Below, piece after piece: positions 8,424 to 22,717 of a stretch of 40,008 bases of DNA (its first letter is position 1; every line of letters starts with the position of its first letter). The stretch comes from an uncultured Bacteroidota bacterium (GTDB lineage: Bacteria > Bacteroidota > Bacteroidia > AKYH767-A > JABDAW01): assembly GCA_903844645.1 (NCBI GenBank), contig CAIMUP010000115.1, forward strand, positions 1 through 40,008, read 5' to 3'. Under the pieces are notes generated by a model. It was not told the DNA's origin. It saw only the letters and a program-made list of their open reading frames with translations, and did no database searches. A program made the position numbers and the translations under genes.

Positions 8424-8702
8424 TTATGGCGCGTCCCCTCCCGCCTCCCCACCAAAGTCCCCACCAAAAGGCGGTAGCGGTCGGGCTGTTCGGGGGTTCC
8501 GTTGCCGCCTCCCGCCAGAAAAGTCCCTACCAAAAGGCTGCAACCAAGCCCCTACCATCCCTCGCGCAGCAAACCACACAATCCCCCAAACCCTCAAGCA
8601 TCCTGACAGGAAATCGCCCCTTCGCGATTTCCTGTCAGGTTGCTGATTTTATTAGATGCAACCATACAGGAGCTTCGCACCTGTCAGGATGCTTGAACAA
8701 TC
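8424..8702. repeat. Dispersed C-rich element, copy 1
   Basis: The first ~150 bp (opening TTATGGCGCGTCCCCTCCCG and ending CCATCCCTCGCGCAGCAAAC) match 39457-39607 with only scattered differences. The second half holds strong inverted repeats. CCTGACAGGAAATCGC (8602-8617) pairs perfectly with 8624-8639 around a 6-nt loop. An outer 17-bp pair joins 8594-8610 and 8680-8696. The element is C-rich on this strand, unlike neighbouring DNA. Array C begins 9 bp after it. No transposase is present, so a REP/MITE-like noncoding element is the best description. Confidence 0.8.
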
Positions 8703-8710
8703 ATCTTTTT

Positions 8711-8857
8711 GAAAAATGGTGTCGAGTTTTTGGAAAATGGTGTCGAGTTTTTGAAAAATGGTGTCGAGTTTTTGAAAAATGGTGTCGACTATTTGAAAAA
8801 TGGTGTCGAGTTTTTAGAAAATGGTGTCGAGTTTTTGAAAAATGGTGTCGTCTTTGG
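8711..8857. repeat. Tandem array C, seven 21-bp units
   Basis: Units start every 21 bp from 8711 with GAAAAATGGTGTCGAG plus a T-run. Units are nearly identical; the 8774 and 8837 units vary in the last third. Open frames exist in both directions only because 21 is divisible by three. Confidence 0.95.
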
Positions 8858-9053
8858 GTCAAAGCCAATAACCTTTCCACCATCCCCAATTTAAAACCGC
8901 CGTAAAGGCTGATTAAAAGCAAAATTAGGAGGGCAACTTATTTTCATCCCCCGAAACCGCCCCTTTTATCCTCCCAAACCGAATCTTAAACTATAAAACA
9001 GCCCCTAAAATGCGCTCCACGCTCTAAAAACCGATTGTGGCACTATACTCTAT
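8858..9053. other. Noncoding stretch without recognised features
   Basis: Between array C and the palindrome downstream of marR I see no gene, promoter or convincing hairpin. The sequence is C-rich on the + strand. Confidence 0.55.
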
Positions 9054-12900: not shown

Positions 12901-12928
12901 AAACGGAGTGAAATGATTCACTCCGTTT
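12901..12928 (-). terminator. Intrinsic terminator of the small-peptide operon
   Basis: AAACGGAGTGAA (12901-12912) pairs perfectly with 12917-12928 around a 4-nt loop. Read on the minus strand the stem is followed by a T-run, the classical layout. It separates the peptide operon from the TIGR02757 gene. Confidence 0.85.
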
Positions 12929-12985: not shown

Positions 12986-13171
12986 CTATTTAAGTCCCCA
13001 GCCGCTCTGCTCTGTGCCTATTGCAACAAAGGATTGACCAGTAGCTGCGTCAATAAAATTGACTTTTTCTTTTCCACTATTACCTTCGACATTATCTTTG
13101 GTAACAGTAATGTCGGCACAAGTGCAGTTGATTCCGCAGGACATCAACAAGCAAACTAAGATTTCTACCAT
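12986..13171 (-). CDS. Small hydrophobic-leader peptide 3, core IGTEQSGWGLK
   Basis: This is the third gene of a three-gene operon. It encodes 61 residues: a hydrophobic start (MVEILVCLLMSCGINCTC) with three or four Cys, a polar middle with DITVTKDNVEG and VNFIDAATGQSF, and the invariant end AIGTEQSGWGLK. The hydrophobic segment carries Glu rather than Lys/Arg before it, so it is not a textbook Sec signal. It differs most from the other two in the leader but keeps the C-terminal 11 residues exactly. I do not recognise the family. The leader pattern plus fixed tail suggests an exported or membrane-displayed peptide whose C-terminus is the active part. Confidence 0.75.
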   Translation of the reverse strand: MVEILVCLLMSCGINCTCADITVTKDNVEGNSGKEKVNFIDAATGQSFVAIGTEQSGWGLK

Positions 13172-13198: not shown

Positions 13199-13381
13199 TT
13201 ATTTTAGACCCCAACCGCTTTGTTCAGTACCAATCATAACATAACCGTTACATGGGGCTTGGTCGAAGAACATCACATGCTCTGTACCATTTGGTTCGAA
13301 AGTGTCTGACACAATAGTTATGTCACCTGGATTTGCTTTTACTCCTATCGAAAGGAGGATCGCGATAATAATTTCAATCAT
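13199..13381 (-). CDS. Small hydrophobic-leader peptide 2, core IGTEQSGWGLK
   Basis: The second gene of the operon encodes 60 residues: MIEIIIAILLSIGVKANPGD, then DITIVSDTFEPNGTEHVMFFD, then the fixed tail MIGTEQSGWGLK. The N-terminal 20 residues are almost identical to peptide 1, and the DNA encoding them also matches closely, so the pair arose by recent duplication. Spacing is 45 bp to peptide 1 and 27 bp to peptide 3, each gap A/T-rich with a similar TAACTAAA-type leader before the ATG. The leader ends in a short-side-chain stretch (VKANPGD) that could be a cleavage region; this is inference. Confidence 0.78.
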   Translation of the reverse strand: MIEIIIAILLSIGVKANPGDITIVSDTFEPNGTEHVMFFDQAPCNGYVMIGTEQSGWGLK

Positions 13382-13426: not shown

Positions 13427-13660
13427 TTATTTAAGACCCCAGCCACTCTGTTCGGTACCAATAGGGTTAATCGTAGCAGGAGCAATGCCCCAGCCGCTTT
13501 GTTCAGTTCCAATCATGGAATAAGAATTCCCGTTGGAATTGTCATAAAATGTAACTTGTTCTACTCCGCCTGGTGTAGAAGTGTCTGATAAAATTTGGAT
13601 GTCTCCAGGGTTTGCTTTTACTCCTATCGAGAGGAGGATTGCGATGATAATCTCTAACAT
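13427..13660 (-). CDS. Small hydrophobic-leader peptide 1 with duplicated core
   Basis: The first gene of the operon encodes 77 residues. The leader is MLEIIIAILLSIGVKANPGD and the middle is DIQILSDTSTPGGVEQVTFYD. It then has two copies of the core: MIGTEQSGWGIA, a linker of about six residues, and PIGTEQSGWGLK. Duplication of only the C-terminal segment is the pattern expected when the tail is the functional unit, as in multi-core RiPP precursors or propeptides of signalling peptides. No modification enzyme, ABC peptidase-exporter or immunity gene is adjacent. A perfect TTG-N19-TAATTTTG promoter lies about 110-140 nt upstream. The divergent neighbour is the TPR-like protein at 13867. Confidence 0.82.
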   Translation of the reverse strand: MLEIIIAILLSIGVKANPGDIQILSDTSTPGGVEQVTFYDNSNGNSYSMIGTEQSGWGIAPATINPIGTEQSGWGLK

Positions 13661-13767
13661 AATAGTAATTTTTAATTATTTATTTGGTTCGTATTGTTTT
13701 TTTTCCTAATTTTGTCGCCTGAATCTTAATCATGACTTTTGAAACGATATATAACTTATTCACGGTG

Positions 13768-13797
13768 CAAAATTACAGAGGATTTTGCAATGGGCAA
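13768..13797 (-). promoter_or_regulatory. Promoter TTG-N19-TAATTTTG for the peptide operon
   Basis: On the minus strand TTG (13795-13797) and TAATTTTG (13768-13775) have the preferred 19-bp spacing. The predicted 5' leader is about 100 nt. The opposite gene starts at 13867, so regulation of both could be coupled in this 206-bp region. Confidence 0.8.
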
Positions 13798-13866
13798 TGG
13801 ACAAAGATTTCCATTTCGGACAAACACCTAAATTATTGAAATAAAAACACAAAAATACAATTCATT

Positions 13867-15453
13867 ATGAGCACATTAGAAAACAGCACTACACCCATTA
13901 AAGTTTTAGTAAAAGGGTTAACAAACGAAGAAATAAATTCCGTTAGACGGTATTTAAATTGCTTTGATGAGATATTTGGTAACACAAAAACCAAAACCGC
14001 GAACCTCTTTGATTTGGTAATTTCTGAAGAAATCTTGACTGATGAGGAAATTATGTTTAACATTTATTCAAATACGGCAAGTATTGAAGCATTTGATAAA
14101 CTTTCAAAAAGATTGGTTGAAAAAATTCATGAATGTTTGTTATTAGATATTAATGTCGAAAGAAAGGATGCATACCCTGATTACGTTAAAGCGACTATTG
14201 ATGTAAGAAAAAAAATTATGCAAGCTCATATTCTACTTGGTAGAGCCTTAACTAAAGATATCAATGGCTTTTATGATAAGATTATAATCAAAGCAAAAAA
14301 GTTTGAATTGTATTCAGAACTTGTTGAAGTGCTTCATCTTAAACAGATGTATTTAGGTTTAAGAAACGGTAGTGTTGAATACAATAAAATAGGAGAGGAA
14401 ATTGTTTTTTATGAGAATTGCAGAGTGGCTTCCTATAAAGCATGTGATGCGTACTATAAATTTGTGGTCAATAATGACTTTTCATCAATCAATAAGGTTG
14501 ACATAGGTAGATTAGAAGAATTTATTATGGAACTTAAAGGTCTATACACTTTAACTAATTCTGCAAATGTCGGTTATTTCCTTTTCTTAATGGAGTTCGA
14601 GTTATTCCAAAAGAAAGGTTTATATGAGGAAGCTAAATCTTCTTGCCTGAAATTAGTTGAGTTGATTCAAGAAAACCCCGCAATTTATCAGAAAAGACGA
14701 CTTGGTTCCGCTTTCGTGAACTTATCTATCAATGAATTGCATACTTATGACTTTAAGGCTTCCGGTCTTCATGCCCGATTGGCTCAAGATTATTTCAACA
14801 AGAACACTATCAATCACGGTATTGCTAAGGAAACAGAATTTTATTCCTACTTCTTCCAAGGTGATCTCGATAAGGCAGATTCTGTAATAAATTCCCTGTT
14901 GAAAGAAACCAATTCCGATTCTGAATTCCTCGAAAGCAAGCGATCTTTCCTCGCTGCCAATGTCGCTTTCTTGATGAATGAAAAGAAAAATATCAATCTC
15001 CTTTTAAACGAAACCAATGCCGTAAGCAAAGACAAGGAAGGCTGGAACATTGGCATCCGAATTCTTTCGATAATGAGCCAGATAGAGGCGGGGGTTAATG
15101 ATCCCGCCGAGGCACAGGTTGAAAGTATGCGCAAACATATCGAGAGGACGATGAAAGACAAAGATGTTCGAGGAAGAGATGTTACCATTCTTCGGATTTT
15201 GAATGAATTAGTCAACCAAAGTTTCGACTTCGCGGCGGTTTGGAAGAGCCGTAAGCAGTTGTTTGATCAATTGGCTTCGGAAGATAAGGACCAGCGGTGG
15301 GAAATGGACAGCCATGAACTGATTATTTTCCATGAGTGGTTCAAGTCTAAAGTTTTCGGAACGGTTTACCCTGCGAAGATAGAAAACAGTCCCAAGGTTG
15401 TTGTCGCTATGGAGGAAGAGTTTGCGCTTCTCTCCAAGGTCGGGAGCAACTAA
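13867..15453 (+). CDS. Large all-helical TPR-like protein, candidate peptide sensor
   Basis: The 528-aa protein is soluble with no signal or membrane segment. Residues 15-90 form an N-terminal helical domain (LTNEEINSVRRYLNCFDEIFG, then a NLFDLV block and AFDKLSKRLVEKIHECLL) with the layout of a broad Bacteroidota family of ~500-aa proteins of unknown role. From about residue 110 to 500 it consists of paired helices with TPR-like spacing (for example YEEAKSSCLKLVELI, FFQGDLDKADSVINSLL, KSRKQLFDQLAS). No DNA-binding helix-turn-helix is obvious. It is divergent from the three-peptide operon and 24 bp from mnmH. TPR folds bind short peptides in RRNPP-type systems of Firmicutes. That comparison is an inference, since no alignment was made. 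Confidence 0.75.
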   Translation: MSTLENSTTPIKVLVKGLTNEEINSVRRYLNCFDEIFGNTKTKTANLFDLVISEEILTDEEIMFNIYSNTASIEAFDKLSKRLVEKIHECLLLDINVERKDAYPDYVKATIDVRKKIMQAHILLGRALTKDINGFYDKIIIKAKKFELYSELVEVLHLKQMYLGLRNGSVEYNKIGEEIVFYENCRVASYKACDAYYKFVVNNDFSSINKVDIGRLEEFIMELKGLYTLTNSANVGYFLFLMEFELFQKKGLYEEAKSSCLKLVELIQENPAIYQKRRLGSAFVNLSINELHTYDFKASGLHARLAQDYFNKNTINHGIAKETEFYSYFFQGDLDKADSVINSLLKETNSDSEFLESKRSFLAANVAFLMNEKKNINLLLNETNAVSKDKEGWNIGIRILSIMSQIEAGVNDPAEAQVESMRKHIERTMKDKDVRGRDVTILRILNELVNQSFDFAAVWKSRKQLFDQLASEDKDQRWEMDSHELIIFHEWFKSKVFGTVYPAKIENSPKVVVAMEEEFALLSKVGSN

Positions 15454-16521: not shown

Positions 16522-16692
16522 TCCGGCATTTTCTTCCGCGAAATTGTTTTTTTTATTCCTCGAAAAAGGTGCATCCCGAAGGGCAAAAAAAGAGGGAGAA
16601 AAGAGACTGTTTTTATCTCCAAAAAATTCACCAAAAAGGTGCCCATTATTCCCGATAATTTTCAGGAAATGACGATTCGGTTTGGAAGGAAC
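16522..16692. other. Noncoding convergent spacer
   Basis: Purine-rich + strand DNA between the mnmH stop and array E. No gene or convincing terminator is visible. Confidence 0.5.
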
Positions 16693-16824
16693 GACAAGCC
16701 CTTTGCGGAACATGTCATTGGGTTTAAACTCAATGACAATTTCTTTGCGGAATATGTCATTGAGTTTCCCCTCAATGACACATTCCGCAAGGAAACTGTC
16801 ATTGAGAGTTGAGAAAACGACATT
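16693..16824. repeat. Tandem array E, 21-bp units alternating in orientation
   Basis: Units start at 16693, 16714, 16735, 16756, 16777 and 16798, with a partial unit at 16819. Every second unit starts GTCATTG and the others start GACA, and CAATGAC joins each pair, so GTCATTGAG and CTCAATGAC form nested inverted repeats. TTTGCGGAAYAT in two units is inverted as ATTCCGCAA in a third. It is the only array made of head-to-head 21-bp pieces. Confidence 0.85.
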
Positions 16825-16826
16825 TT

Positions 16827-16902
16827 TTTCGGTGAATTATTGATTTATTCCATACATATTGATGAATTCTATAAAATAAAAACCATTCCTTATTCACCGA
16901 AA
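16827..16902. repeat. Inverted repeat, 12-bp perfect arms
   Basis: TTTCGGTGAATA (16827-16838) pairs with TATTCACCGAAA (16891-16902) around a 52-nt AT-rich loop, next to array E in the convergent mnmH/NadR-like gap. Confidence 0.55.
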
Positions 16903-18264: not shown

Positions 18265-19293
18265 ATGAAAATAGAAGACGAACGCAAGAACTTTTTACTC
18301 GGTAAAAAGATTCCTCTTTATTTGATACTTACCTTTTCTGCTGCGGCAATTTATGGTTTGAATTATACCTTTAAATACTTCCATGCCGAAGAACCTGCGA
18401 AGGTGGCGCAAGCCGATGTGAAGTGTGTGTCGCCATTGAATATTATTCGCGAGAATGATTACAAATTCACACGCCCATTGTTGCTGGCGGATGTGAAGGG
18501 CGAGGATAGGAAGTACGATGTTATCAAGAAGCAGGTGAATGATTATGTCGAGAGCTTTATCAAGACTAAGGTGATCGAAACGGCATCGGTTTATTACTGC
18601 GCGTTGGATGATAACTCCCAGTTTAGCATCAATAAGGACGAGAAATACCATCCTACCGACATGCTTGCGGTGGCGAAGATGATTGCCTTATTAAAGCAGA
18701 GCGAGAGGAACGCCGAGCTGCTCGATAAAAAGGTATTATATACCAAGCAAGTCCCGATTCCGAAGCAAGATAAAGCTGCGGCATGCCTCGAAAATAACAA
18801 GATGTTCACCATTCGCAGCCTGATGTACAGCATGTTTGCCTGCAACGACGATAACGCTACGATTGCCCTGAATCCGTACGTTGATTCCTCGGTTTTGAAG
18901 AACCTGTATTCCTCCATTCAGGAGCCGTTTCCGGGGGTGAATGACAGGGATTATATGACGGCTATCTACGATTACACCAGGCTCCTGAAGGTGCTCTATA
19001 CGGCAGGTTATCTCACCGAGGCTCATTCTGAATTTGCCTTGGAATTGATGACCAATACCTCCTTCCACGATGGTATTTTGAAACACATCGGGAAGGACGC
19101 GAAGGTGGTTCATTATTATGCCGAAAACGAAGTTGCCGCCGCGATGGAGGTGCACGAATTCGCCATTATTTACTTAAAGAACAAGCCTTATATTATCAGC
19201 ATTATGAGCAAGGGTGGCGATAAGAAGAACCTCTCCGTGTTGTTGAGCAATATCTCGAAGATGATCTACGATTCGATGAATAAAATCTCTTAA
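18265..19293 (+). CDS. Beta-lactamase-fold paralogue 1, probable pseudoenzyme
   Basis: The 342-aa protein has a membrane anchor near residues 16-33 and aligns along its length with the three following paralogues. All three catalytic motifs of the serine beta-lactamase/transpeptidase fold are altered. Where paralogues have S132-M-M-K135, this one has D132-M-L-A135. Their SDN (195-197) is NDD (194-196). Their KFG (284-286) is replaced by YYA. The sequence is otherwise intact and without stops, so it looks selected for a non-catalytic role such as binding, scaffolding or regulation of its relatives. It is separated from paralogue 2 by array F. Its own promoter is at 18199-18230. Confidence 0.8.
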   Translation: MKIEDERKNFLLGKKIPLYLILTFSAAAIYGLNYTFKYFHAEEPAKVAQADVKCVSPLNIIRENDYKFTRPLLLADVKGEDRKYDVIKKQVNDYVESFIKTKVIETASVYYCALDDNSQFSINKDEKYHPTDMLAVAKMIALLKQSERNAELLDKKVLYTKQVPIPKQDKAAACLENNKMFTIRSLMYSMFACNDDNATIALNPYVDSSVLKNLYSSIQEPFPGVNDRDYMTAIYDYTRLLKVLYTAGYLTEAHSEFALELMTNTSFHDGILKHIGKDAKVVHYYAENEVAAAMEVHEFAIIYLKNKPYIISIMSKGGDKKNLSVLLSNISKMIYDSMNKIS

Positions 19294-19335
19294 AACAATA
19301 ATAAAATGATTGGGAAGATGGTATTTTTGGCGTTT

Positions 19336-19560
19336 AAGGGCATGACTGGAACGGTAGAAGTTATGACTTCTGTGATTAAAGTCATGACCACTGTTTTAAA
19401 AGTCATGACCACTGTTTTAAAAGTCATGACTTCTACGATTAAAGTCATGACTTCTACGATTAAAGTCATGACCACTGTTTTAAAAGTCATGACTTCTGCG
19501 GTTAAAGTCATGACCACTGTTTTAAAAGTCATGACTTCTACGATTAAAGTCATGACCACT
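19336..19560. repeat. Tandem array F, eleven 21-bp units of two types
   Basis: Nine units start with AAAGTCATGAC (containing the palindrome GTCATGAC) and two degenerate ones precede them. The second half takes one of two main forms, CACTGTTTTA or TTCTACGATT (with TTCTGCGGTT once), in the order P P Q Q P Q P Q P from 19378. Units start at 19336, 19357 and every 21 bp to 19546. It lies between two + strand paralogues. Confidence 0.95.
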
Positions 19561-19628
19561 ACGCCCGTTTTCCGCTTAAAACCGGTATTAAATACCTTAA
19601 ATCATACCATAAATTAATTCATAAAACT

Positions 19629-20657
19629 ATGAAAGCAAAGATTAATAACAAATGGTACTCTATCACCCGCGGCGTGTCGGTTTATTGGGTGTTGATTATT
19701 GTGCTTACAGCAGCGTTGCCCTACAATTTGTATCTTAATAATTACAAGCTCCCCATCGCCCATAACGAGGAAGTGGCGGAAGATCGTTTGCTGCCTTACA
19801 AGCTGATTCATGAGACGAATAGCAACAAATTAACCCACCCCCTTCGCCTCATTACCGGGCTGACCGAGGACCAACGCTTCATGCCGCTGAAGGACCGGAT
19901 GAATACCTATATTAATGATAAAATGGGGCATGAATTGAAGATGGCATCGGTGTATTTTAATGCCCTAAACGATGCCAATGGCGGCTTTTCGGTGAATGGG
20001 AATGAGAAATTCAATCCTGCCAGTATGATGAAGGTTTCATTCATCATCGCCATGCTGAAAGAGGCAGAAAACAACCCCGAAATCCTGGATAAAAAAGTAT
20101 ATTACGGCAAGCACAACCCCGCCAATGGCGACCAACTGTTCCTCGACCACAAGCTGCCGGAAGGAAAATCCTATACCATCAGAGAATTGCTGTATTACGC
20201 CGCAGTCTATTCCGACAATGATGCCGCTTTTTTGGTCGTCAACAACTTTAAATGGGAGGGCTTGACCACTTTGGCAAGCAGTTTAGACCTCCCCGAACCC
20301 AAAATGCGAATCGAATATTACCTCACCGCAGAAGAAATGTCGCGGTTCTTCAGAGTATTGTTTAATGCCAGTTATTTAAGTAATGATATGTCAGAATATG
20401 CCCTCGACCTCCTCTCGAAAAGCGATTACAAAGAAGGATTGGTAAAGAAATTAGATAACAACGTCCTCGTAGCCCGCAAGTTTGGGGAACGCGGAATAGA
20501 AGATTATAAAGAACTGCATGAATTCGGCATCGTATATATCAAGAATCAACCCTATTTAATAGGAATCATGACCCGTGGCAATGATTATAAACAACTGCAA
20601 GAAGTCATCTCCGACCTCTCCCTCATGGCATACGACGAAATGATGAAACCCCTGTAA
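19629..20657 (+). CDS. Class A beta-lactamase-like serine hydrolase, paralogue 2
   Basis: The 342-aa protein is anchored by one N-terminal membrane segment (about 18-36) with the catalytic domain outside the cytoplasm. Its motifs are S132-M-M-K135, S195-D-N197 and K284-F-G286, the last a variant of the KTG/KSG triad. This is the fold of class A beta-lactamases and related D,D-peptidases (Beta-lactamase2 family). An ExxLN deacylation motif was not identified, so resistance activity should not be assumed. A cell-wall or peptide/ester hydrolase is as likely. It is followed after 2 bp by paralogue 3. Confidence 0.83.
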   Translation: MKAKINNKWYSITRGVSVYWVLIIVLTAALPYNLYLNNYKLPIAHNEEVAEDRLLPYKLIHETNSNKLTHPLRLITGLTEDQRFMPLKDRMNTYINDKMGHELKMASVYFNALNDANGGFSVNGNEKFNPASMMKVSFIIAMLKEAENNPEILDKKVYYGKHNPANGDQLFLDHKLPEGKSYTIRELLYYAAVYSDNDAAFLVVNNFKWEGLTTLASSLDLPEPKMRIEYYLTAEEMSRFFRVLFNASYLSNDMSEYALDLLSKSDYKEGLVKKLDNNVLVARKFGERGIEDYKELHEFGIVYIKNQPYLIGIMTRGNDYKQLQEVISDLSLMAYDEMMKPL

Positions 20658-20659
20658 CC

Positions 20660-21685
20660 ATGAAGCAACATCTGGCAGCCAAATGGTATTCACTAACCCG
20701 GAAACTCCCTGTTTACTGGGTACTTATCATTGCCCTGTTAGCCGCCATTCCTTATAATCTTTACATCAACCATTTTAATCTTCCCATCGCCCATAACGAG
20801 GATGTAAAAGACGATTGCAACCTCCCCTACAACCTCGTCAGCGACAAAAACAACCGATTAATTCATCCCATCCTCTTCGCCGACGTCGCCACTGAAGATG
20901 AAAAACTGATGCCCCTGAAAGAAAAGATAAATATCTATCTTAATACCAAGAAAGCCGAAGGATTAACCTCCGCAGCGGTATATTTTAATAATCTGAACAA
21001 CGCCGATGGATGGTTCGTCATCAAACCTGATGAAAAATTTAACCCCGCCAGCATGATAAAAATAGCATTCATGATTGCCATCCTCAAAGAAGCCGAAGAA
21101 AATCCCGCTATCCTCGATAAAAAAGTATTCTATGCCAAGCATTCCGAAGAATATCATGACCAAGCAATCCTCCAACATCAACTGCCGCCAGGGAAATATT
21201 ACACCATCAGAGAACTCCTCCAATATGCCGTGTCATACTCCGACAACGATGCCGCTTTTTTGATACTGAATAATTTTAAATGGAGCTCCCTACAGAAATT
21301 AATTGCCGAATTAAACCTCCCTCCCGTAGAATTGCACACCGAATATTTCCTCACCGCAGAACAAATGTCCCGATTCTTTCGCATCCTATACAACGGCAGT
21401 TATTTAAGCAACGACCTATCCGAATACGCCCTCACCTTGCTCACCAAAAGCGACTTCAATAAAGGACTTATCAAGAACCTCGACAAAAATTTAATCGTAG
21501 CCCGCAAGTTCGGCGAACGAGGAATAGATAAAGTCCGTGAGTTGCACGAATACGGAATAATTTACCTCAAAGGAAACACCTATTTAATAGGAATAATGAC
21601 TCGCGGAAAAGACTATGCCCAGCTCCAGGAAATCATCGCCGAAATATCGGTAATCGCCTACGACGAAATGGCGAAAACCATTTAA
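20660..21685 (+). CDS. Class A beta-lactamase-like serine hydrolase, paralogue 3
   Basis: The 341-aa protein is closely related to paralogue 2: the same anchor pattern (YWVLIIALLAAIPYNLYIN), NPASMIK for SxxK, SYSDNDAAF for SDN and VARKFGERG for the third motif. The ATG overlaps nothing and lies 2 bp after the previous stop, so the genes are translated from one message. The high similarity across the whole length shows tandem duplication. Substrate is unknown. Codon use in this copy and the next shifts to more C-ending codons than in paralogue 1. Confidence 0.82.
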   Translation: MKQHLAAKWYSLTRKLPVYWVLIIALLAAIPYNLYINHFNLPIAHNEDVKDDCNLPYNLVSDKNNRLIHPILFADVATEDEKLMPLKEKINIYLNTKKAEGLTSAAVYFNNLNNADGWFVIKPDEKFNPASMIKIAFMIAILKEAEENPAILDKKVFYAKHSEEYHDQAILQHQLPPGKYYTIRELLQYAVSYSDNDAAFLILNNFKWSSLQKLIAELNLPPVELHTEYFLTAEQMSRFFRILYNGSYLSNDLSEYALTLLTKSDFNKGLIKNLDKNLIVARKFGERGIDKVRELHEYGIIYLKGNTYLIGIMTRGKDYAQLQEIIAEISVIAYDEMAKTI

Positions 21686-21688
21686 AAG

Positions 21689-22717
21689 ATGAAACAAATC
21701 ATCGTCGAAAAATGGTACTCCATGACACGCCGAATCCCGCTTTACTGGGTACTGATAATCGCATTAATCATCGCCATTCCCTATAACCTTTACATCAATC
21801 ATTTCAACATCCCCGTAGCCCATAGCGAAGAACAAAAAGAAAGTTGCAACCTCCCATACAACCTCGTACAAATAAACCGAAACACCTTTGTCCACCCCAT
21901 TCTGCTCGCCGAAGTCGCCACCGAAGATCCAAAACTCAATCCCTTAAAAGAAAAAATAAATGCCTTGATAGAAGAAAAGAAAAACGATAAAACACTAACA
22001 TCCGCCTCCGTCTATTTCAATATCCTAAACAGTGCCGACGGATGGTTCGGCATTAACAACGACCAAAAATACAACCTCGCAAGCCTCCTCAAAGTAGCCT
22101 TCGTGATGGCAATGCTCAAAGATGCCGAAGACAACCCCGCCATGCTCGATAAAAAGATACATTTCACCAAACATCTAAGTGCCGTCGAAGGACAAAATAT
22201 CCTCAACCACGCCCTCCAACTCGGCAACTATTACACCATCAAAGAACTCCTCCAATACGCAATATGTTACTCCGATAACGACGCTGCCTACCTCATCGTA
22301 GAAGCCTGCAAAACCGGCTCCCTCAACAAATTATTAACCGACCTCCAACTCCCACCCTGCGATTTATACAAAGAATATATCGCCAATGCCGAAGAATATT
22401 CCCGCCTCTTCAGAGTCCTATGCAACGGCAGTTATTTAAGCAACGACCTCTCCGAATACGCCCTCGAACTACTTACCAAATCCGACTTCAACGAAGGCAT
22501 CACCAAAAAGCTCGACAAAAATATAATCGTAGCCCGCAAATTCGGCGAACGCACCCAAGAAAACAAAGAACTCCACGAATTCGGCATCATCTACCTCAAA
22601 GGAAACCCGTATCTTTTAGGTATCATGACTAAAGGTAACGACTACAAACAACTCGAAGAACTAATCAGCACCATCTCCACAACAGTGTACGAAGAAATGG
22701 CAAAACCAGCCCTCTAA
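21689..22717 (+). CDS. Class A beta-lactamase-like serine hydrolase, paralogue 4
   Basis: The 342-aa last member of the series keeps the anchor (about 18-36), SLLK for SxxK (NLASLLK), CYSDNDAAY for SDN and VARKFGER for the third motif. It starts 3 bp after paralogue 3. It diverges most from paralogues 2 and 3 in the 215-250 region, which lies near the substrate pocket in this fold, hinting at different substrates for the copies. It ends 47 bp before the convergent unknown gene, with no clear terminator hairpin in between. Confidence 0.82.
   Translation: MKQIIVEKWYSMTRRIPLYWVLIIALIIAIPYNLYINHFNIPVAHSEEQKESCNLPYNLVQINRNTFVHPILLAEVATEDPKLNPLKEKINALIEEKKNDKTLTSASVYFNILNSADGWFGINNDQKYNLASLLKVAFVMAMLKDAEDNPAMLDKKIHFTKHLSAVEGQNILNHALQLGNYYTIKELLQYAICYSDNDAAYLIVEACKTGSLNKLLTDLQLPPCDLYKEYIANAEEYSRLFRVLCNGSYLSNDLSEYALELLTKSDFNEGITKKLDKNIIVARKFGERTQENKELHEFGIIYLKGNPYLLGIMTKGNDYKQLEELISTISTTVYEEMAKPAL

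Follow-up and report, generated by a model that had tools for sequence, protein, structure and literature searches.

Does a Bacteroidota genome encode short peptides together with a receptor of their own? In Firmicutes and their phages, TPR receptors are known that sense peptides inside the cell. The question is raised here by a stretch of 40,008 nucleotides from an uncultured Bacteroidota bacterium (hereafter the window), where three consecutive genes for short peptides diverge from a gene for a 528-aa helical protein.

Three peptide genes with a common core

The peptide genes, their parts and the facing gene are located as follows.

12986..13171, minus strand: peptide gene 3, 61 aa, single core, the most diverged of the three
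12989..13021, minus strand: core of peptide 3 (IGTEQSGWGLK), C-terminal
13199..13381, minus strand: peptide gene 2, 60 aa, single core
13202..13234, minus strand: core of peptide 2 (IGTEQSGWGLK), C-terminal
13340-13381 and 13130-13171, minus strand: leader equivalents of peptides 2 and 3, variants of MLEIIIAILLSIGV
13427..13660, minus strand: peptide gene 1, 77 aa, two cores; self-match at E 1.9e-47, relatives within the genus
13430..13462, minus strand: core copy 2 of peptide 1 (IGTEQSGWGLK), C-terminal
13487..13513, minus strand: core copy 1 of peptide 1 (IGTEQSGWG), residues 50-58
13619..13660, minus strand: hydrophobic leader of peptide 1 (MLEIIIAILLSIGV), leader pattern match
13867..15453, plus strand: 528-aa TPR-superhelix protein (P0004), proposed receptor; all-helical model, Foldseek TPR matches

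Each of the three peptides starts with a hydrophobic leader, continues with a variable middle and contains the invariant core IGTEQSGWG; over the three genes, this core is present in four copies. We found that all three ORFs end on IGTEQSGWGLK, as the preliminary description had claimed, and that the first peptide does contain an additional IGTEQSGWG at residues 50-58. The three genes are real, but position 13427, given earlier as the start of the cluster, belongs only to the first gene on the minus strand, and the cluster begins at 12986. The tail had also been called nearly invariant. This holds among the peptides of the window; across the order, however, the tail varies, and the leader (pattern M-[LIV]-E-[LI]-[LI]-[IL]-A) is conserved at least as well. 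Neither the three peptides nor the 528-aa protein matched any Pfam or NCBIfam family above the cut-off, and relatives of peptide 1 were not found in viral contigs.

A gap of 206 bp separates the peptide genes from the TPR gene. The following signals were detected in this gap and at the end of the peptide operon.

12901..12928, minus strand: intrinsic-terminator-like hairpin at the end of the peptide operon, 12 pairs and a T run (consensus match only)
13707..13714, plus strand: putative TAnnTTTG-type -7 box toward the TPR gene (pattern match)
13768..13775, minus strand: putative TAnnTTTG-type -7 box toward the peptide genes (pattern match)
13707-13724 / 13758-13775: 18-nt inverted repeat containing both boxes

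Of the one promoter and one terminator that had been proposed, the terminator stands as a single hairpin-like element. A sigma-70 scan of the intergenic region returned no promoter; instead, two TAnnTTTG boxes of the Bacteroidota type lie face to face, and the same pair is present in a congener (L023).

Elsewhere in the window, short tandem-repeat runs are found at 8426-8905 and 16639-16843, with EKWCRVF- and RNMSLSLNSMT-like units in translation. Furthermore, four consecutive paralogues of ~342 aa at 18265-22717 resemble, by eye, penicillin-binding or beta-lactamase-like serine hydrolases.

The facing protein has a predicted TPR fold

The 528-aa protein had been described as all-helical and TPR-like, and structure prediction agrees with this. 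The AF2 model, built on an alignment of 22 rows, consists of helices throughout (pLDDT 85, pTM 0.77), and Foldseek matched it to generic TPR superhelices, including LGN and Rap proteins. Among the matches are Rap bound to Phr (6t46), alongside other peptide-binding TPRs, and a further Rap structure (3q15); as eukaryotic LGN matches at least as well as Rap, the TPR fold is unspecific as evidence. Pfam gave only weak TPR matches, and a profile search of PDB sequences found generic and designed TPRs only, with known RRNPP receptors absent. No signal peptide is visible in the sequence. An HTH was detected neither by Pfam nor by fold, and an Rgg-type HTH receptor is thus not supported. By eye we suspected a winged helix in the N-terminal domain; the fold search gave no confirmation, and the first 130 residues modelled alone had no PDB fold match at E<=0.001.

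In the window, mnmH starts 24 bp downstream of the TPR gene, and a constant association with mnmH had been named as an alternative. Of 83 loci, only six have mnmH after the TPR gene, and we therefore reject the idea that the TPR gene and the peptides are mere neighbours of mnmH.

The pairing recurs among Bacteroidota

We are nearly certain of the pairing of peptide and TPR genes, which is found again in many Bacteroidota that are only distant relatives. Homologues of the TPR protein were found in 27/42 genomes of the same order and in 106/395 sampled genomes of the class Bacteroidia. A phylum-wide sample of 296 genomes, searched with a narrower profile, contained the gene in four; on this sample and profile, the range beyond Bacteroidia looks small. 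In 262 kb of same-order loci, all 17 matches to a 9-residue leader pattern are divergent from a TPR gene, at a distance of 41-760 bp; this count is illustrative, since the pattern was composed with some of these peptides already known. The class-wide test is independent of the pattern, as it is based on hydrophobicity and covers 83 loci, with TPR genes counted where 250 bp or more are free upstream. Here, a divergent ORF with a hydrophobic leader accompanies 54/80 TPR genes compared to 17/149 other genes (odds ratio 16, p=4e-18, which overstates independence because the loci include close relatives). Several TPR genes that seem to lack such an ORF are either second copies within an array or face a peptide too long for the length limit. 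A scan of named genomes recovered further pairs in MAGs labelled Bacteroidetes, Flavobacteriales and Chitinophaga. The expectation that such peptides lie beside homologues of the 528-aa protein across Bacteroidota is thus confirmed.

The layout varies between genomes. The genome of the window has one TPR gene. In the congener G002, where the layout of the window is repeated, the TPR gene is 66% identical and there are three peptides. In G003, a member of the same family, a single peptide accompanies an array of four or five TPR genes; this array, at L024 2814-9658, contains four to five tandem paralogues with the peptide at its head, and one copy is apparently interrupted. Peptides that occur without the TPR gene, which would have spoken against the pair, were seen only in part: the genome of the window contains two solitary family peptides (C98, at L003 1465-1686, and a C13 copy in L004), in which IGTEQNGWGIQ is followed by a short tail and which have no TPR neighbour, yet this genome has a TPR gene. 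Runs of short repeats similar to those in the window occur near these solitary peptides (L003 2395-2601, L004 2464-2949).

A second TPR paralogue is found in four loci where it diverges from a small Cro/C1-type HTH gene and not from a peptide (L075 2099-2365, L077 9229-9540, L086 8377-8733 and L089 9241-9549); one of these HTH genes is above the HTH_26 cut-off. This arrangement resembles an HTH-TPR regulator that has been split in two. In the family f41, a TPR clade has no detectable peptide (L127, L131, L132, L135, L137 and L141).

The core is the unit of selection

The core is under selection at the protein level. In nine core copies from two species, pairwise comparison gives 138 synonymous and 14 non-synonymous differences, the sole amino acid change being S/N; for comparison, the leader codons have 107 synonymous and 87 non-synonymous differences. 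The synonymous substitution pattern led us to reject chance ORFs, and a repeat element at the DNA level is unlikely because the codons of the core vary although its protein sequence is frozen. Paralogues of the same locus agree at 8/8 residues of the core, whereas outside it their identity is 34-68% for the window, 51% for L126 and 23% for L165. The latter locus has six tandem genes, of which two versions are 23% alike outside an identical IIVDELQH. Nor is the core buried in a larger folded domain, which had been considered as an alternative; it lies outside any large folded domain, and in the lineage of the window some precursors have residues beyond it.

The spacer between leader and core is demonstrably dispensable. 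In L187-L195, the receptors have ~36% identity with P0004 and are faced by one to four peptide genes in tandem, and the precursors range from 45 aa (ending in IITNDEVGM) over 39 aa (IITSEQTGM) to 29 aa, where only the leader and IITTDQTGM are left. Four tandem copies of the 29-aa form differ by 28 synonymous and no non-synonymous changes. The resemblance of IITSEQTGM to MIGTEQSGW is suggestive, though no proof that they share an origin.

Multiple cores per precursor occur in three lineages, with two cores in the window and three or five elsewhere, and tandem genes reach up to six. For instance, IIVDEI[AG]H is found three times in the precursors of L179 and L181 (as IIVDEIAH or IIVDEIGH) and ST[MV]FDQTDG five times in that of L182. 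The lineages with three and five cores lend further support to the multi-core idea of the preliminary description.

Multi-core precursors, tandem short hydrophobic genes and a fast-changing middle are also what would be expected of a bacteriocin, a RiPP or a small toxic peptide, in which case the TPR protein would serve for immunity, as a chaperone or in maturation. We consider this quite improbable. Among paralogues it is the core that is frozen and not the hydrophobic part. Reading the adjoining ORFs, we saw no evident RiPP enzyme, protease-exporter or toxin family; no RiPP-modifying enzyme was recognised by reading the ORFs of the window or around related TPR loci, where some of the neighbours were also passed through Pfam. 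PADLOC, Pfam and NCBIfam gave no match. In addition, the genes lie on the chromosome in conserved synteny, and neither phage nor plasmid matches were obtained, which also led us to reject cargo of a mobile element.

Peptide type follows the receptor

In a tree of 88 TPR proteins, the type of leader requires 12 changes, compared to 37 when shuffled. Peptides with a Sec-type leader occur with only one TPR clade (25 Sec, four without a peptide and no type I). This shows that the peptide type follows the receptor phylogeny, which we read as co-evolution. The pairing follows the receptor and not the species, because f41 paralogues (e.g. in G209) differ in both clade and peptide presence.

This tracking of the TPR clade, together with the divergent and not operonic layout, favours a regulatory pair over exported structural or envelope peptides that are assembled through a dedicated TPR chaperone. 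Structural peptides would fit the strand-like core DxxTGxxYxxGG, which is common to the order-level peptides, and the extra solitary copies; multi-core repeats and the 29-aa form are unlike a folded structural subunit. We regard such a structural role as very improbable.

The clade of the window uses type I leaders, which mostly have no basic n-region. Among the type I leaders listed, 2/43 have K or R within the first 12 residues and 28/43 have D or E within the first five. As basic residues near the N-terminus are rare, most type I leaders are not classical Sec signals, and without a basic n-region the tail may stay inside, so that a membrane tether is possible. Here, the leader would anchor in the inner membrane and the core on a cytoplasmic tail would recruit the TPR protein to the membrane, without export or cell-cell signalling; the repeated cores would provide multivalency. 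The frequent D/E at positions 2-5 fits with this, since the positive-inside rule permits an N-out/C-in orientation. A signal peptide is not visible in the TPR protein, and short linear tails are common ligands of TPR domains. Nevertheless, we consider a tether rather unlikely. Sec-type peptides are paired with one TPR clade, and the tail of the 29-aa form is nine residues long, which allows little space beyond the membrane.

A further point against a tether comes from the congener G001, where the 11-mer IGTEQNGWGIQ of the solitary peptides occurs within an anti-sigma-like membrane protein (P0005, L025 177-1748, minus strand, residues ~97-108) whose gene lies beside an ECF sigma gene. The 11-mer is located in the linker after a transmembrane helix, on a side that is presumed periplasmic by charge, and the P0005 orthologues of two congeners do not have it. 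This favours an extracytoplasmic position of the core, as a single case in a MAG that is 58% complete, and it may be counted as a sign that the core is portable, in line with the peptides being precursors of a ligand.

Proposed mechanism

We lean, with slightly more confidence than doubt, towards the peptides being precursors of a short ligand (approximately IGTEQSGWG, possibly extending to LK) and the 528-aa protein being the cognate receptor, a cytosolic TPR protein. The hydrophobic segment at the N-terminus would carry the precursor into or across the inner membrane, and the variable middle would be a disposable spacer. The core would be the recognised part and the ligand of the TPR groove; as with Rap-Phr and Rgg-SHP, the superhelix would probably hold it on the concave side. 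Binding of the core would most likely alter the hold of the receptor on a partner protein, as with Rap, because the receptor has no recognised DNA-binding domain. Since most leaders are without a basic n-region, export is here inferred, as is sensing; membrane passage, cleavage, re-import, binding and a regulated process are the steps that such a signal would take. In a diderm host, a peptide signal has either to pass through two membranes or to act out of the periplasm, which counts against this mechanism, and no importer or processing protease was found linked to the genes.

By title and abstract, open-access papers contained nothing relevant on a counterpart in Bacteroidota or other Gram-negatives (subscription papers and preprints were outside this scope). 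We see an even chance that the pairs represent a class-wide, undescribed form of peptide signalling in Bacteroidota, with precursors that begin with a hydrophobic leader and often contain several cores, a divergent TPR receptor that is unrelated to RRNPP by sequence, and lineage-specific codes. If so, an RRNPP-like logic would exist separately in a dominant phylum of gut, water and soil, and communication by peptides, or their use as internal signals, could be tested directly in a diderm group. Candidate peptides are IGTEQSGWG, IITTDQTGM, IIVDELQH, IIVDEIAH, IIGLEETDY and STMFDQTDG.

Comparison with known systems

RRNPP has been treated as a system of Firmicutes, and the runs of RRNPP_detector were restricted to complete genomes of this group (PMC10075063).

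When comparing the pair to this family, we find that some features are shared. An intracellular TPR-domain receptor is indicated by the AF2 model, the Foldseek matches and the absence of a visible signal peptide, with ligand binding being putative, and an adjoining propeptide gene of 10-100 aa is present (54/80 vs 17/149). With regard to Sec or PptAB export, Sec-like leaders occur in one TPR clade, and 41/43 type I leaders have no K/R in the first 12 residues. Neither an N-terminal HTH (as in Rgg, PlcR, PrgX, NprR and AimR) nor a Rap-type helical bundle was found by Pfam or fold search, and the PDB profile search and Pfam revealed no sequence kinship to known receptors.

Rap-Phr of Bacillus is similar in that a cytosolic TPR protein without HTH adjoins a small precursor with the active peptide near the C-terminus, and Rap structures (6t46, 3q15) are among the Foldseek matches. 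However, the PDB sequence search gave no Rap match, and the N-terminal domain is here of another all-helical kind. Furthermore, the genes are divergent instead of tandem, the host belongs to Bacteroidota, the leaders are mostly not Sec-like and a precursor can contain several cores. Rgg-SHP and ComR-ComS of Streptococcus share the very short hydrophobic precursors with a terminal peptide, and shp genes are often divergent from rgg; Rgg, however, has an N-terminal HTH, which was not found here. The best overall fold matches are TPR domains of the LGN/KLC type, which were solved with short peptide partners, but these are eukaryotic, have intracellular partners and no propeptide gene.

Of the RRNPP reading in the preliminary description, the TPR-fold receptor and the adjoining short propeptide thus stand, whereas neither an HTH nor sequence kinship was found. 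As the N-terminal domain and the kinship fail despite the common layout, we consider the pair an analogous, separate kind of system and not a member of RRNPP.
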